Below, piece by piece: positions 9,684-57,178 of a stretch of 64,000 bases of DNA. Numbering within the stretch: position 1 is the first letter of the stretch; each line of letters begins with the position of its first letter. Under the pieces are notes generated by a model, which had not been told where the DNA came from, did no database searches, and saw only the letters and a program-made list of their open reading frames with translations. A program made the translations under genes and the position numbers. The stretch covers positions 868,001 through 932,000 of the forward strand of contig WGME01000003.1 in the NCBI GenBank assembly GCA_016125225.1, given 5' to 3'. Origin of the DNA: a bacterium. Lineage in GTDB: Bacteria > Planctomycetota > Planctomycetia > Planctomycetales > Planctomycetaceae.

Positions 9684-9716
9684 GACAATGCACTTTCGAT
9701 CGGCTTAAGGAATTCT

Positions 9717-9808
9717 CAGCGGAAAGCAAAAAGCGGAAGGCGGAAAGCCAACTGCAGCGAGTCGAGGACTAATCCGGCTTTCTGCTTTTTGCCTTCTGCT
9801 TTCCGCTG
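9717..9808. repeat. Intergenic inverted repeat, GCGGAAAGC family
   Basis: Imperfect 33-nt arms (9717-9749 and 9776-9808) that would fold into a long hairpin of purine-rich against pyrimidine-rich strands. A related element with the same arm sequences lies at 28842-28933. It sits between lpxL-like and Rieske genes. Confidence 0.75.
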
Positions 9809-9865
9809 GAATGCAGTCTCCTGCTGAGAGCAGGTTCAGTGGCCGTATGATCCGACCAGTTTTCT

Positions 9866-10896: not shown

Positions 10897-10960
10897 ACCA
10901 GCCCGCAGGGCCAGCAAGGGGTCCTTCGAATGCCATCCCTTGCTGGCGCTGCGGGCTGGT
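10897..10960. repeat. Intergenic palindrome, AGCCCGCAGCGCCAGCAAGGG family
   Basis: Arms 10897-10920 (ACCAGCCCGCAGGGCCAGCA and following AGGG) and 10937-10960 pair almost perfectly around a short spacer. The element starts 8 nt after the SDR stop codon on the minus strand. Related copies lie at 12983-13169 and 54863-54929, with a remnant at 53392. Confidence 0.8.
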
Positions 10961-12982: not shown

Positions 12983-13169
12983 CCTGCCCGCAGCGCCAGC
13001 AAGGGGGACCGGAGAATGTCGAATTTCGAAATCCGAATGACGAAAGACCTGTGAAATCCTAAGCTCCAAACAGAAACTTGTTTGCGTGATTATTCAAAAT
13101 CACTTTCGACATTCGAGCTTCGTCATTCGACATTGGGAAACAAGCCCCTTGCTAGCGCTGCGGGCTGGT
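12983..13169. repeat. Nested intergenic inverted repeats
   Basis: The outer arms 12983-13005 and 13146-13169 belong to the AGCCCGCAGCGCCAGCAAGGG family (one mismatch, CTAGCG for CTGGCG). Inside is a second, unrelated pair: CGAATGACGAA at 13034-13044 against TTCGTCATTCG at 13119-13129, with AATGTCGAA near 13015 repeated in inverted form downstream. The element fills the gap between divergent hpnH and the DTW-like gene. Translating it gives a spurious N-terminal extension to the latter. Confidence 0.75.
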
Positions 13170-13751: not shown

Positions 13752-13756
13752 GGGGC

Positions 13757-13846
13757 GGGCCAAGTGATAAGTGGTAAGTGCCAAGTGAGAGATACATCGG
13801 GCAGCATTTGCCTTTCACTTGGCACTTAGCACTCCACACTTGCCCC
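13757..13846. repeat. Intergenic inverted repeat, AAGTGCCAAGTG family
   Basis: Left arm 13757-13789, rich in CAAGTG/TAAGTG units, pairs with right arm 13811-13846 (CACTTGGCACTTAGCACT). It begins 5 nt after the DTW-like stop and ends just upstream of the amidohydrolase GTG start. Fragments of the same motif occur at 24036-24094 and 61695-61735. Confidence 0.7.
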
Positions 13847-13870
13847 ACGGAATAACAATAGGAACCGATT

Positions 13871-15454
13871 GTGCATTACGATCTGATTCTGCGTGGTGGC
13901 GATGTCATTGATGGCCAGCGGAAACCGCGGTTCAAGGCCGATGTCGGTGTGACTGGTGATCGCATCACCACGGTCGGTGATCTCACCGCTACGACGGCGA
14001 ACAAAGTCATTGATGTGACCAGCCGGTGTGTCGCGCCGGGTTTGATCGATGTCCACAACCATTCCGATGGCTGGATGCTCAAGTCGCCGCATCAACTCCA
14101 CAAGACGGCACAGGGCATCACTACCGAAGTCCTGATGGCCGACGGCATCTCCTATGCCCCGGTCGATCCACACACGGCTCCCGAATGGATCGCCTATTTG
14201 CGGTCGCTCAACGGGCTGCGGTTCGATGAATACCGCGGCTGGGAATCGCTGAATGACTATCTGGCCTTGCTCGACGGTCGCAATGTGCAGCACGCGGCTT
14301 ATCACATTCCGTACGCGAATGTCCGCACGATGGCATGCGGCTTCGGTAAACGCCGCATCGATGACTTCCAACTGCGGCAGATGAAATACGAGATTCGCAA
14401 GTCGATGGAAGAGGGGGCCGTCGGCGTTTCAACGGGCATGGACTACCTCGATCAATGGTATGCGACGACGGATGAACTGGTCGCGACATTGTCGGTCCTC
14501 AAGGAAACCGGCGGACTCTATGTCACGCACATGCGGTACAAGACGGGCCTGATGGCGGCGATGAAGGAAGCGGTCGAAATCTGCCGCCGGGCCGAAATTC
14601 CGTTGCACATTTCGCATCTCAAAGCCTTGGGCGATATTCCGCCGGAAGCTGTGCTGGAGTATCTCGATCAGGAAGCCCGGAAGCAGGTTGATCTGACGTT
14701 TGATGTCTATCCGTACCAGCCCGGCTCAACGATGTTGAACTCGTTGCTGCCGTATGATGTGTGGGACAATGGAGCGACAGCCGCCCTGGGACGCTTAGTG
14801 CAACCGGAGTTTCGGTCACGGTTCGCGCGGTCGCTGGCCTGCCAGCGATTGCCTCTCGATCGCATCTGCATCGCCTGGACGTTGAGCAAAGAAAACGCGT
14901 GTCATCAAGGGAAGACACTCGCTCAATATGTTGCAGACGTCGGCAAACCGGCGGGTGAAGCGCTGCTGGATCTGTTGCTGGAAGAACGGCTGTCGGTTCT
15001 GCTGGTGTTTCTCGAAGGGGACGACCGCAAGGTCTATCCGATGCTGCAACATGAGTGCTGCATGCTGGGATCGGATGCGATTTATTATCCGAATGCGGTG
15101 GTCCATCCGCGGGCGTTTGGTTCCGGACCGCGCTGGTTGGGCCCATGCGTGCGTGAACAGAAATTGTTCTCGCTCGAAGATGCCGTGTGGAAGGCGAGCG
15201 GGTTTGCCGCCCGGCGCTTTGGTTTACCCGATCGCGGCGTGATTCAACCCGGTGCCCTCGCCGATCTGATGATCTTTGATCCGGCGACCATATGCGATAC
15301 CGCCACCTTTGCTGATCCGCAACAGTATCCGGTGGGCATCGACGCTGTGATCACAGCGGGGCAGATTATTGTTCGTAACAACATTCCGGAAGATCTTGGC
15401 AGCGAGAACCTACCCGGTCGTGTGATTCGTGCCCAACCGAAGGCATTGTTTTAG
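13871..15454 (+). CDS. N-acyl-D-amino-acid deacylase-like amidohydrolase
   Basis: Metal-dependent hydrolase of the amidohydrolase superfamily (D-aminoacylase branch), 527 residues with a GTG start. The N-terminal strand LILRGGDVIDG, the metal site VAPGLIDVHNHSD, GVSTGMDY, the HISHLKALG metal-ligand region and DVYPYQPGST, and the C-terminal GVIQPGALADLMIFDP are all typical. Likely substrates are N-acyl-D-amino acids or related amides, cytoplasmic since no signal peptide is seen. The TAG stop codon lies inside a palindromic repeat shared with the convergent synthase gene. Confidence 0.88.
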   Translation: MHYDLILRGGDVIDGQRKPRFKADVGVTGDRITTVGDLTATTANKVIDVTSRCVAPGLIDVHNHSDGWMLKSPHQLHKTAQGITTEVLMADGISYAPVDPHTAPEWIAYLRSLNGLRFDEYRGWESLNDYLALLDGRNVQHAAYHIPYANVRTMACGFGKRRIDDFQLRQMKYEIRKSMEEGAVGVSTGMDYLDQWYATTDELVATLSVLKETGGLYVTHMRYKTGLMAAMKEAVEICRRAEIPLHISHLKALGDIPPEAVLEYLDQEARKQVDLTFDVYPYQPGSTMLNSLLPYDVWDNGATAALGRLVQPEFRSRFARSLACQRLPLDRICIAWTLSKENACHQGKTLAQYVADVGKPAGEALLDLLLEERLSVLLVFLEGDDRKVYPMLQHECCMLGSDAIYYPNAVVHPRAFGSGPRWLGPCVREQKLFSLEDAVWKASGFAARRFGLPDRGVIQPGALADLMIFDPATICDTATFADPQQYPVGIDAVITAGQIIVRNNIPEDLGSENLPGRVIRAQPKALF

Positions 15455-15537
15455 CCCCCGGTGAGACACTGGGGGCCGAGCGCTGCGTGGACGTATCGAT
15501 AAGTGCAATCGGCCCCCGGTCATTGACCGGGGGCTAA
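15451..15537. repeat. Palindromic element TTAGCCCCCGG...CCGGGGGCTAA, copy 1
   Basis: An 87-nt element with two internal stem-loops (15453-15477 and 15511-15535) and symmetric TTAG/CTAA ends. The left TAG (15452-15454) is the stop of the amidohydrolase, and the right CTA (15534-15536) is the TAG stop of the convergent synthase. It probably acts as a bidirectional terminator. Confidence 0.85.
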
Positions 15538-16421
15538 GACTTGCGAGCCCACAAGGCCCGGCCGACGATCCAGAGCTTCTTCCATCGCGGCACACTGACA
15601 CGCTGCGTGAAAACGTCGTAGTGCCGCTTTTCGATCTCGTGCAGCAATCCGCCGTAGATATCGAGCATGGCCCGCAAGATGGGGCGTCCGATCGGTTTGA
15701 GGAGCGGAAACAGACGTTCGGCACGACGATAACTGGAGCGAGCCCGATCGGCTTCAAACTGCATCAACCGGCGAAATCGTTCATCCTGAACATGTCGCGA
15801 AAGGTCGTCGCAGGTATAAACAAAGCGCTGCAAATCTTCGGCGGGGAGATAAACTCGCCCCAGCGCCCAGTCTTCACCGAGGTCGCGCAGAATGTTCGTC
15901 AACTGCAGGGCGAAGCCACAGTCGATGGCGATGGGAATCGCATCTTCGTCCATGAAGCCCCAGATGTGAATGCAGCACAGGCCGACGACACCAGCCACGT
16001 GGTAACAGTAATCGTCCAGTTCCGCGAAGGTTTGAAAGCGGACCGGTTGCAGATCGCGTTCCATCCCTGTGATGACCGCAAACAGATAGTCGGGCGGAAC
16101 ATGATGCCGTTGGACCATGTCCACGACTGCCGGAAGAATCGGATGCTCAACCACTTCACCCGCCAATGCCCGAGTCAATTCCTCACGCCAGGCTGTTAAG
16201 GCCTGCTGACGGCTGTGGTTCGGTTGCAGCGGGTCATCGCCTAGATCGTCGGTGATGCGCATGTAGGCATAGAGCGCGCACATCGAGTCGTACTGCGGGC
16301 GGGGCAACGTGAGGAAGGCGTAGTGAAAATTCTGGGCGGCTCGCTGAGTCAATCGGCGGCACTGTTCATAAGACTCGGCCAGCAACATGGAAGAACACAC
16401 CCGAAGCCCGAAACCACGCAT
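15534..16421 (-). CDS. Squalene/phytoene synthase family protein
   Basis: Head-to-head prenyl transferase condensing two prenyl diphosphates. It has the two Asp-rich substrate/Mg motifs: DDLGDD near residue 60 and NILRDLGEDWALGRVYLP near residue 180, plus the family N-terminus SYEQCRRLTQRAAQNFHYAF. With hpnH nearby it may act in the HpnC/HpnD route to squalene for hopanoids, but carotenoid (phytoene) synthesis cannot be excluded. 295 residues is normal. The ATG at 16388 (MLLAESYEQ) is an alternative start. The stop codon comes from the palindromic element. Confidence 0.88.
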   Translation of the reverse strand: MRGFGLRVCSSMLLAESYEQCRRLTQRAAQNFHYAFLTLPRPQYDSMCALYAYMRITDDLGDDPLQPNHSRQQALTAWREELTRALAGEVVEHPILPAVVDMVQRHHVPPDYLFAVITGMERDLQPVRFQTFAELDDYCYHVAGVVGLCCIHIWGFMDEDAIPIAIDCGFALQLTNILRDLGEDWALGRVYLPAEDLQRFVYTCDDLSRHVQDERFRRLMQFEADRARSSYRRAERLFPLLKPIGRPILRAMLDIYGGLLHEIEKRHYDVFTQRVSVPRWKKLWIVGRALWARKS

Positions 16422-28841: not shown

Positions 28842-28933
28842 CTGGCGGAAAGCGAAAGTCAAACGGCAGAAAGCCGGAATCTTCTTTGATTCCCGATATC
28901 TGGCTGTCTGCTTTCCACTTTTTGCTCTCCGCA
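28842..28933. repeat. Intergenic inverted repeat, GCGGAAAGC family, copy 2
   Basis: Left arm 28842-28875 (GGCGGAAAGCGAAAG, GGCAGAAAGCC) pairs imperfectly with right arm 28902-28933 (GGCTGTCTGCTTTCC, TTTTTGCTCTCCGC). It has the same arm composition and size as 9717-9808, and lies 18 nt after a stop codon. Confidence 0.7.
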
Positions 28934-35375: not shown

Positions 35376-35467
35376 GTCTTAGCCCCCGGTCAATGACCGG
35401 GGGCCGATAATTGCATGGGGTGTCGTTTGTTGTATGCGGCCCCACGTCAATGACGTGGGGCTAAGAC
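35376..35467. repeat. Palindromic element, copy 4
   Basis: A 92-nt element bounded by GTCTTAG and CTAAGAC, with two hairpins: GCCCCCGGTCAATGACCGGGGGC on the left and GGCCCCACGTCAATGACGTG (then GGGC) on the right. It ends 2 nt before the aminotransferase stop codon (minus strand). Confidence 0.85.
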
Positions 35468-53391: not shown

Positions 53392-53497
53392 TTTACCAGC
53401 CCGCAATGTCTTAGCCCCCTGTCAGTGACGGGGGGCCGGTGGGGCATGGGGGCATCGATTATGAATCGGCCCCCGGTCAATGACCGGGGGCTAAGAC
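53392..53497. repeat. Palindromic element, copy 5, next to a remnant of another family
   Basis: A 90-nt element (53408-53497) bounded by GTCTTAG and CTAAGAC with two hairpins. Directly before it, 53392-53406 (TTTTACCAGCCCGCA) is identical to the start of the element at 10893, and its continuation is cut off by the GTCTTAG boundary. The element ends 10 nt before the waaA stop. Confidence 0.8.
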
Positions 53498-53507
53498 GTG
53501 CGTGTCA

Positions 53508-54821
53508 TCACGCGGCGTGGCGGATGTTTTGGCCGTTCCCCTGCAACACGCCATCGATCACGGTCAGTGTCTTTGCGGTCGCGCCTTGCTGTGTCAGCAC
53601 GAAGTCGCGGGCCGTCTGTCCCAACCGCTTGCATTCATCAGGATCGACGATGACTCGGCGGAGGGTATCACACAGTTCGTCCACGTCATGAATCACCACG
53701 GCGGCTTGCCGCAAGAGTAACTGTTCGACGATGTCGCGGAAGTTCCACGTGTTCGGGCCGAACAACACCGCCGCACCGTAACCTGCCGGTTCCAGCATGT
53801 TCTGCCCGCCGCGTTGAGTCAGACTGCCGCCGACAAAGGCGATATCAGCGAGTCCCCAGCAGGCCGCGAGTTCCCCGAGGGTATCGAGGAGGCAGACGGT
53901 TGAGAGTTGAGGGTTGAGAGTTGAGAGTTGAGACATTTCGCTGCGACGGATGAGTCGCAGACCACGGCGGTGAACCAGACTGGCGACGTCTTCGAAGCGT
54001 TCTTTGTGACGGGGTACGAGAATCAATCGTAACTGCGGGAACTCATCGATCAGTGCCTGATAGGTATCCAGGGCTAAGTATTCTTCCGGGTCTTGCGTAC
54101 TCCCGGCGATGAAAACCAGATCATCGGGACCGATGCCGAAGGCGCGACGGAGTTCGGCGGTCTTCGGGTTGTTCCGGTCGGACTGCACGCGGTCATATTT
54201 GATGTTGCCGGTGATCGTGAGGTGTTCCGCAGGTACACCCATCGCGGCAAAGCGTTCCGCATACTCAGCCGACTGCACCGCGACGTGCGTGAGAGTCGAA
54301 AGCAGCGGCCGCAATAACGGTTTCAAACGGGAGTAACCGCGATAGCTGTTCGCACTCAGACGGCCATTGATGATGACGACCGGCACCTGTTCCGCTTGCG
54401 CAATCCGCAGGAAATTCGGCCAGACTTCGAGTTCGACGAGGACGACGAGTTCGGGCTGAACTGTTCTCAAGGCCCGTCGCACCGCCCACGTGAAATCGAA
54501 GGGCCAATAATTGATGGTGTGCTGCGGGAACTTCTGGTAGGCGATGTCGTAGCCCGTGCTGGTGGTTGTCGTGATACAAATCTCGTGGTGCGGATGCCGT
54601 TGGGCGAACTCGGCGATGAGCGATTGCAATTGCAGCACCTCGCCGACGCTCACCGCATGGAACCAGACACACGGTCGCTCGGGATGCTGCCGGATCATCC
54701 AGCCGGTCCACTTCTCGCGGAACCCGGCGATCGATTTGCGTTGCGACCAGCGGCGATAGGCCAACCACGGGGCGAGCAACAGCCCGACGCTGAGATACAC
54801 CAGATTCAGGAGTCCGCCCAT
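53508..54821 (-). CDS. waaA: 3-deoxy-D-manno-octulosonate transferase with an internal heptad-repeat insertion
   Basis: GT30 enzyme that adds KDO to lipid A precursor at the inner membrane. 437 residues; E. coli WaaA 425. Marks include an N-terminal membrane segment, CVWFHAVSVGEVLQLQSLIAEF, YDIAYQKFPQHTINYWPFDF, PELVVLVELEVWPNFLRIA, and the C-terminal HKERFEDVASLVHRRGLRLI and FVGGSLTQRGGQNMLEPAGYGAAVLFGP. Between LIRRS and the conserved LLDTLGEL sit MSQLSTLNPQLSTVC-like residues encoded by five copies of GTTGAGA (53899-53933). The insertion is in frame and lies in a variable loop, so the enzyme may still work. Confidence 0.92.
   Translation of the reverse strand: MGGLLNLVYLSVGLLLAPWLAYRRWSQRKSIAGFREKWTGWMIRQHPERPCVWFHAVSVGEVLQLQSLIAEFAQRHPHHEICITTTTSTGYDIAYQKFPQHTINYWPFDFTWAVRRALRTVQPELVVLVELEVWPNFLRIAQAEQVPVVIINGRLSANSYRGYSRLKPLLRPLLSTLTHVAVQSAEYAERFAAMGVPAEHLTITGNIKYDRVQSDRNNPKTAELRRAFGIGPDDLVFIAGSTQDPEEYLALDTYQALIDEFPQLRLILVPRHKERFEDVASLVHRRGLRLIRRSEMSQLSTLNPQLSTVCLLDTLGELAACWGLADIAFVGGSLTQRGGQNMLEPAGYGAAVLFGPNTWNFRDIVEQLLLRQAAVVIHDVDELCDTLRRVIVDPDECKRLGQTARDFVLTQQGATAKTLTVIDGVLQGNGQNIRHAA
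53899..53933. repeat. Heptad tandem repeat GTTGAGA x5 inside waaA
   Basis: Five 7-nt units (the second is GTTGAGG), read on the minus strand as TCTCAAC. They give the peptide SQLSTLNPQLST. The total length is compatible with an open frame. Confidence 0.9.
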
Positions 54822-54862
54822 GTTCTTGCCTTCCGTGGCATACGCCGCATTGGCGATTCATC

Positions 54863-54929
54863 AGCCCGCAGCGCCAGCAAGGGGCATCCCTGCAACACGT
54901 TGTATCGGCCCTTGCTGGCGCTGCGGGCT
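54863..54929. repeat. Palindrome, AGCCCGCAGCGCCAGCAAGGG family
   Basis: A perfect 21-bp inverted repeat (54863-54883 with 54909-54929) around 25 nt. It is in the divergent region between waaA and the Gfo/Idh/MocA gene, and matches the arms at 10897 and 12983. Confidence 0.85.
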
Positions 54930-55091
54930 AGTTCAGGGCATGTTACCTCTTCGTGGAGTTTGCGTGAACGGGAGTTCGGGATCGCGAAAAATTGGGGTCT
55001 GCGGCAAAACTCTGGCGTACATCTCGGGCACGATTCAGGTAAGATGATATTGATGCATGCCCGAAAACCCGCCTCACCGAACCGGAAAGCT

Positions 55092-56757: not shown

Positions 56758-57178
56758 TTTTTGTCTTGTTCCAATATTGCGCTTGGTCATGCTGGGCTAT
56801 GACGTTTCGCATGTCAATCAACGACAGCATTTGCCCCGGCAGGGGCAGAAGATATTAGCCCCTGGTGTGAACCAGGGGAATGAGATGCGGTAATGATGAT
56901 TCAGCCCTGTAGGGGCGAGAGAACAATCAGGAATCTGTCGCCCCGGTGGGGCTCTCTGGGAGCTGATGGCTCCGTGTGCCCCAGGCTGACGCCTGGGGCT
57001 ATTTTCGATCGCCCCTCCGGGGCTGAAACTCGGTCACTCTGTCTCTGTCACCCTTGCGAAACCACGCGTCGTATCCGAACGACTTCGCTTGTGAAAGTCT
57101 CTCGCGGGGGATGGTCCGACCGGCTGCGCCAGCATGGCCCCTCAAAGAATTGTGCCGTCGATCAGACCGACAAGAGGG
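56758..57178. repeat. 421-nt intergenic region with compound hairpins
   Basis: Several hairpin pieces: TTAGCCCCTGGTGTGAACCA (GGGG) at about 56856-56878, GCCCCGGTGGGGC around 56959-56971, CCCCAGGCTGACGCCTGGGG at about 56979-56998 and GCCCCTCCGGGGC at about 57011-57023. Such runs of GCCCC hairpins are common between planctomycete genes. The last ~80 nt (57049-57128) resemble a sequence upstream of map. No gene was found. Confidence 0.6.
57049..57128 (+). other. 80-nt duplicated element, copy A
   Basis: Contains CACCCTTGCGAAACCAC, GCTTGTGAAAGTCTCTCGC and GACCGGCTGCG at the same spacing as copy B at 60226-60307. It lies beyond the 3' end of the autotransporter gene. Confidence 0.55.

Follow-up and report, generated by a model that had tools for sequence, protein, structure and literature searches.

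A probable one-armed member of a dispersed heptanucleotide repeat family occupies a permissive loop of a planctomycete Kdo transferase

The waaA gene of a planctomycete (genome G000; 6.35 Mb, 42 contigs) carries a short array of seven-base units. We analyzed a stretch of 64,000 nucleotides containing this gene (assembly GCA_016125225.1, contig WGME01000003.1, positions 868,001 to 932,000), which we refer to as the window. Our preferred reading, to which we assign a probability of about 0.7, is that the array is a dispersed heptad element, selfish or neutral, which is tolerated at a permissive loop of the enzyme and works like the palindromic elements of Rickettsia.

Results

The array is located at 53899-53933 and consists of five GTTGAGR heptads on the plus strand, antisense to waaA: GTTGAGA, GTTGAGG, and three further GTTGAGA units. 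TRF assigns to it a period of 7, 5.0 copies, 92% matches, and a score of 63, the top score among 12 rows for the window. At up to two mismatches, GTTGAGAGTTGAGA has four overlapping matches against 0.35 expected, and four matches were reached in none of 100 shuffles. The five heptads reported here by a preliminary description of this DNA are thus real by TRF score and shuffles, and as unit 2 ends in G, they form an imperfect array. For the counts of the unit in G000 and across genomes given below, the reversed pattern is a rotation of the repeat when the variable base is A and is thus not an independent control, so that we rely on shuffles. No inverted partner of the array was found, with the best inverted-repeat score being 4.2 versus a cut-off of 13, and the array is consequently classified as a single arm.

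The open reading frame on the opposite strand (53508-54821, minus) is matched by the NCBIfam PRK05749 models with a best E value of 1.7e-112, but stays under the curated cut-offs of these models. It also matches Pfam Glycos_transf_N and has solved relatives (4bfc, 2xci). On this evidence it is annotated as waaA, encoding lipid IV(A) Kdo transferase, and it is the sole match and thus a single-copy gene in G000. The nearest named relatives of this waaA belong to records of Planctomycetaceae and Schlesneria MAGs. In the WaaA frame the array encodes SQLSTLNPQLST, corresponding to residues 297-308 (53898-53933), which is contained in a loop of residues 295-310 (53892-53939, minus strand) that we regard as permissive. 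The peptide had been described as inserted between LIRRS and LLDTLGEL. Its position between these motifs is correct, but a net insertion is not seen: the loop has 16 amino acids, within the common range of 10-22 amino acids among 75 orthologues, and the array thus takes up the loop without extending it. In the AlphaFold2 model (29-row alignment, mean pLDDT 91.6), residues 293-307 sit between strands formed by residues 289-292 and 308-311, and mean pLDDT falls to 76 and 73 in the ten-residue blocks covering them, lower than in any other block short of the C-terminal end.

Heptad arrays recur at this loop. In a set of 83 waaA coding sequences, assembled from two collections of 63 and 20 loci and including some duplicates of one genome and some non-planctomycetes, lag-7 arrays were found in eight rows, and all eight are located in the loop that holds SQLSTLNPQLST in G000. 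No arrays were detected at lags 4, 5, 8, 10, 11, and 13 in the same set, the scan being confined to lags that are not multiples of 3. On a tree from which the loop columns had been left out, the loop arrays require at least six changes, corresponding to at least six lineages, on a topology from a quick method in which 25 of 72 inner branches are weak. The unit is TCAACTC in G000, CTTCAAC/CCTCAAC in L038, a degenerate CTCAACC in G023, ACTCCGC in L061, GGGAGGA in G009, and ACATCGA plus CATCCTC in G014. These represent at least four unit types; as a CTCAAC-type unit is common to three of the six lineages, with each of the other three having a unit of its own, unit diversity is lower than the number of lineages. 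The loop of G001 and G002, which are sister species, contains a two-armed palindrome with 35-nt arms, identified at lag 14 and by eye. The same loop is occupied by a non-heptad palindrome in L042, and in G015 it measures 102 residues and contains SPQRKQG, the likely translation of a REP. Aligning WaaA from relatives, which had been proposed as a check, reveals recurrent arrays with differing units. In a WaaA of another family (L186, genome G051), a G/C-rich insert that looks palindromic is found elsewhere, in the linker between the two domains.

A second recurrent site was found in MnmG, where lag-7 arrays were found in 9 of 30 coding sequences, the site being covered in 29 of them. These represent seven genera (G000, G001, G002, G003, G009, G014, G015, G017, and G024), and all map to one site following a conserved VEG motif. 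At other lags, the 30 sequences yielded one array at lag 4 and none at lags 5, 8, 10, 11, and 13. The MnmG units differ by genus, with the G001 and G002 arrays related by descent and the G009 array being purine-rich and borderline. Additional host genes in G000 encode a GT9 heptosyltransferase with two arrays, MetH, and a PfkB/cytidylyltransferase protein, HldE-like by its domains, with the array at its C-terminal tail. A ketosynthase/FabA-domain protein of 2359 residues in G001 (L277 11450-18529) has seven in-frame heptad tracts, and the mismatch-repair protein MutS of G023 (L274 10783-13503) harbors two in-frame heptad palindromes.

The GTTGAG unit is dispersed throughout G000. GTTGAGNGTTGAG has 51 overlapping matches, divided 28 to 23 between the strands, and these make up 26 GTTGAG arrays of 2-7 units each, 15 of them with two units. 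We sampled 864 kb of G000, comprising 40 stretches of 20 kb taken at fixed steps along three large contigs plus the window. With a stricter threshold of at least 20 matches in a 28-nt window, 11 arrays were found at lag 7, zero to two at each of lags 4-6 and 8-13, and five at lag 14, itself a multiple of 7, and order-3 Markov shuffles of the same 864 kb contained no lag-7 arrays in both runs. A looser threshold yielded 20 lag-7 arrays, to which the non-randomly chosen window contributes six; 12 are intergenic, six genic, and two lie across gene ends. The unit varies by locus in this sample and includes GTTGAGR, AGCGGAA, NNYCGAA, AAGTGNN, GGTTGAT, and GCGGAAG. Many G000 arrays are opposed by an inverted, degenerate copy of themselves. 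An inverted-repeat scan of the sample returned 82 repeats, for which an arm self-period of 7 is the most common (13 of 79 scorable, a few of these not being heptad elements by eye), followed by a period of 13 (11 repeats). Three intergenic heptad palindromes in the window, with no strand assigned, were detected by both the lag-7 and the inverted-repeat scans: at 9714-9811 with AGCGGAA/AGCAAAA units and 36-bp arms, at 13015-13134 with TGTCGAA/TTTCGAA/ATCCGAA units and 32-bp arms, and at 13755-13848 with AAGTGNN units and 43-bp arms. A weaker inverted repeat at 28845-28932, likewise unstranded, has period-7 arms of the GCGGAAA type (lag-7 identity 0.56).

Across 12 genome samples, those of G001, G002, G017, and G023 having been picked near known hits, we found 44 lag-7 arrays versus four in shuffles. 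Lag 14 gave 22 arrays, lag 12 gave 19 (11 of them in G009), and lag 6 gave 17; at the stricter threshold, lag-7 arrays were absent from five of the 12 samples. In the sampled G023 stretches (80 kb near known hits) there were five lag-7 arrays at the stricter and nine at the looser threshold. Among 51 heptad elements from six genomes, those of G001, G002, and G023 again sampled near known hits, 21 face a second, inverted array with which they make up an imperfect palindrome, and in the other 30 no palindrome was seen. Nineteen of the 51 are located inside called genes (seven in one gene) and three are partly genic; the remainder lie between co-directional (14), divergent (10), or convergent (5) genes. 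Three consecutive GTTGAGR units are present in 12 of 59 genomes in a set of relatives and in 4 of 199 genomes phylum-wide, with G000 counted in both, and bursts of GTTGAGR occur in G014 (224 overlapping matches) and G089 (107). The MnmG unit of G024, GGATTGCGGATTGCG, has nine matches at seven places in its own genome, one of them being MnmG, one match in G017, and none in six others. That of G014, GAGGGACGAGGGWC, is found at five places in G014, again including MnmG, at two in G023, and at none in six others. Related genomes thus carry differing units, as shown for these two units in eight genomes.

Several observations were made at the margins of this distribution. Degenerate seven-base arrays are present near waaA relatives in two Elusimicrobia MAGs (L068, L077), which hints that the heptad class is widespread beyond planctomycetes. 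No inverted partner was found for any of the 13 arrays of this set, one of which is that of the planctomycete L061. A contig of G017 (C76; L271 12088-12195) terminates within a heptad array of ~13 units, showing that long arrays break assemblies and may be under-counted. An apparent eight-base period (AGTNNCAR, by eye) with the same palindromic layout, as in a sister class, is seen at L162 6512-6609 and L137 748-814.

We examined how the reading frame and the unit counts of the arrays behave. The preliminary description had proposed a contingency locus, in which slippage of 7-nt units alternately breaks and restores the waaA frame and thereby switches lipopolysaccharide. Seven is not a multiple of 3, so that any change by a single unit shifts the frame, waaA is a single-copy gene, and the GT9 heptosyltransferase and the HldE-like protein bear arrays as well. 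Two contigs in the genome bin of G014 (L172/L173) end or start within waaA, and these two alleles match at 93 of 96 bases next to the loop but have different heptad inserts, suggesting that inserts may turn over between close strains. The two alleles, however, differ in unit identity and not simply in number, and one is cut by a contig end. All 17 arrays that are bordered on both sides by homologous sequence in waaA (8) or MnmG (9) keep the reading frame, and no out-of-frame allele was found among these 17, which come from species-level genomes rather than strains. Between G001 and G002, the unit count is the same at the three loci compared (the WaaA, MnmG, and ketosynthase palindromes); their palindromes differ by base changes, and the sole indels, of 1 and 2 nt, are located in one loop. 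Furthermore, the waaA array is short and imperfect, and MnmG, MetH, and MutS are not surface-variation genes. The proposed switch is thus not borne out, and we regard it as highly improbable, although slow phase variation among strains of this species, of which no further strain was detected, is conceivable.

The ketosynthase gene of G001 contains two palindromes (contig C28, 17245-17343 and 18235-18350) that are 89% identical over 99 nt, including their non-repetitive loop, with unlike flanks. This single clear pair is the most direct sign in our sequences that a whole palindrome was copied within a genome. Weaker matches to the same element number 38 in G001, 33 in G002, 13 in G000, and 0 in G003, counts that include the query, matches to one arm only, and matches on either strand. 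The earlier suggestion of an invading repeat is supported by the genome-wide dispersal of 26 GTTGAG arrays, by related arrays in several unrelated host genes, and by this whole-element copy in a sister species.

Alternatively, the arrays could have arisen locally through slippage at native codons of the loop, in which case they would mirror a shared 7-nt duplication bias and not copying. This is the main rival for the G000 waaA copy in particular: that array is one-armed and, lacking an inverted partner, could have grown locally. Enrichment of period 7 in the 12 genome samples is in line with this reading, and by eye several MnmG arrays open in register with GTNGARG codons of the native sequence and a GT9 array continues native sequence. 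The register in MnmG is equally compatible with insertion, local growth, and microhomology. Local growth is at odds, however, with the presence of one unit at 26 loci in G000 while other genomes place other units at the same gene site, with the unit order shared between palindromic arms, and with the duplication of a ~99-nt element as a whole, its non-repetitive loop included. We thus judge local growth unlikely as an account of these arrays, and favor a dispersed element that is tolerated at the WaaA loop.

The heptads could also represent a functional nucleic-acid element, such as a site for a chromosome-architecture protein, a G-quadruplex, or an mRNA hairpin, with their presence in genes being incidental. 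A precedent exists in the paired heptad and octad arrays of Geobacter metallireducens, which have been proposed as IHF/HU-type sites (PMC2700814). In addition, three G001/G002 hairpins show four compensatory arm changes versus 0.77 expected (P ~0.008), one of the four pairs being located outside the heptads; these changes hint, weakly, at arm-templated correction. The mismatches on the sense strand of 16 hairpins comprise 56 A.C and 23 G.U, the opposite of what selection on an mRNA stem would leave, and the mRNA hairpin was rejected for this reason. A G-quadruplex was rejected for the waaA copy, as the four-GGG-tract pattern is matched by 3 of the 26 GTTGAG arrays but not by this one. An Rfam search gave no match at the waaA array, and the units differ between related genomes. 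Together, these data make a functional nucleic-acid element improbable, and we retain the selfish or neutral element as our preferred reading.

No target duplication, dedicated enzyme, or linked transposase was found for the heptad elements. Mobilization by a RAYT was rejected, since the four Y1_Tnp loci of G000 show no consistent link to arrays: a lag-7 array is nearby at one of them and absent at three. One of these Y1 transposase genes (L289) is flanked by GCCAGCAAGGG REPs and not by heptads. The core of ACCAGCCCGCAGCGCCAGCAAGGG also flanks the L289 gene, and its likely translation is the SPQRKQG peptide of the G015 WaaA loop; paired ACCAGCCCGCAGCGCCAGCAAGGG REPs are found in the window at 10897-10960 and at 54860-54932, the latter just upstream of waaA. 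Just past the waaA stop, at 53406-53499, lies a REP-like paired palindrome, TTAGCCCCCGGTCAWTGACCGGGGGC, with copies in the window at 15448-15540 and 35376-35467 and elsewhere at L148 17095-17186 and L160 14448-14550. A match of this neighboring palindrome (53404-53501) to the Rfam family MIR8670 was discarded as sub-threshold (31 bits versus a cut-off of 150). The Rfam Acido-Lenti-1 RNA is matched at 56979-57024 (plus strand, 52.1 bits). This match corresponds to one arm of an inverted repeat with its partner at 56835-56878, which suggests that the RNA family may itself be REP-like.

Discussion

We propose that the waaA array is a one-armed member of a dispersed heptanucleotide repeat family, many members of which are imperfect two-armed palindromes. 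Such elements would spread inside a genome by the copying of whole units, as shown for one pair, and would persist in intergenic DNA or, within genes, as in-frame stretches of protein loops that can absorb additional residues, as shown by the recurrence at the same sites of WaaA and MnmG. In WaaA, the tract encodes the low-confidence loop of our model and would be held open by purifying selection on the frame. The element itself probably has no function of its own and may be a selfish or neutral passenger. A broader scenario, which we put forward tentatively and consider less probable, is that planctomycetes possess active, protein-invading heptad palindromes with lineage-specific units. Native codons resembling a heptad would help these to enter housekeeping enzymes repeatedly and in frame, always at the same permissive loops, their arms would be kept matching by fold-back (quasi-palindrome) correction, and they would provide a standing source of new loops.

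If our preferred reading is right, in-frame palindromic DNA in protein genes, known from Rickettsia, extends to planctomycetes, and a repeat class can be defined by its period and architecture instead of its sequence. The fixed-site recurrence in WaaA and MnmG would then offer a testable map of loops that tolerate new sequence. For annotators, a non-triplet repeat inside a gene is not automatically a phase switch. A seven-base period has been noted for bacteria earlier (PMC4692102), and its origin could then be studied by contrasting sites with and without an element in closely related strains.

We compared the heptad elements to known repeat systems, using literature whose coverage leaves out most subscription journals. 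Within this coverage, no match to the repeat peptides and no account of heptanucleotide tandem repeats in planctomycetes was found. Nor did we find in print, within the same limited coverage, any description of heptad palindromes that differ in their units and yet repeatedly occupy the same sites of conserved enzymes.

In G. metallireducens, heptads (e.g. MTYCTGA, GGACCGG) or octads are repeated four to five times in tandem, in tens of copies; in several classes the arrays are paired on opposite strands at variable distance, and the GGACCGG family is also found inside genes; the arrays have been read as sites for global regulators (IHF/HU) or as RNA elements (PMC2700814). Among our elements, tandem heptads paired on opposite strands are seen for 21 of 51 but not for the G000 waaA array. 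G. metallireducens belongs to another phylum and has other units (PMC2700814), and the likeness is one of architecture. Recurrent, in-frame occupation of conserved enzymes at the same site is a feature of the planctomycete elements, with none described for G. metallireducens in the accessible part of that report (PMC2700814).

The GGGNATC heptamers of Xanthomonas and Nostoc form arrays of at least two units that are over-represented in non-coding DNA and for which no function was found (PMC4692102). They resemble our elements as dispersed heptamer arrays (PMC4692102). They form G-quadruplexes, however, and prefer four units (PMC4692102), a pattern that the waaA array does not fit, whereas 21 of 51 planctomycete elements are inverted pairs and, in the G000 sample, 6 of 20 arrays are genic. 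In Beggiatoaceae, TAACTGA heptamer arrays are mostly intergenic, sometimes located within open reading frames, and patchy in distribution, all of which they have in common with our elements (PMC4679880). There, one fixed unit is found mainly just upstream of start codons and related heptamers are rarely repeated (PMC4679880), whereas planctomycete units drift widely. REP/RAYT elements are likewise small palindromes found between and inside genes, and two Xanthomonas species have been reported to carry REPs at nearly the same position in recB (PMC3733652); the heptad arms differ from them in having no fixed REP core.

We also compared our elements to the Rickettsia palindromic elements, families of ~150 bp encoding a conserved peptide in frame in unrelated protein genes (PMC10969869). 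Similarly, a dispersed palindrome is found in frame in MnmG, WaaA (G001, G002), the ketosynthase, and MutS, with the G000 waaA copy being one-armed. On this comparison by description, we say that the heptad elements work like Rickettsia palindromic elements and claim no membership. The heptad elements differ from them in being built of units that vary from genome to genome, and in recurring at the same protein site across lineages.
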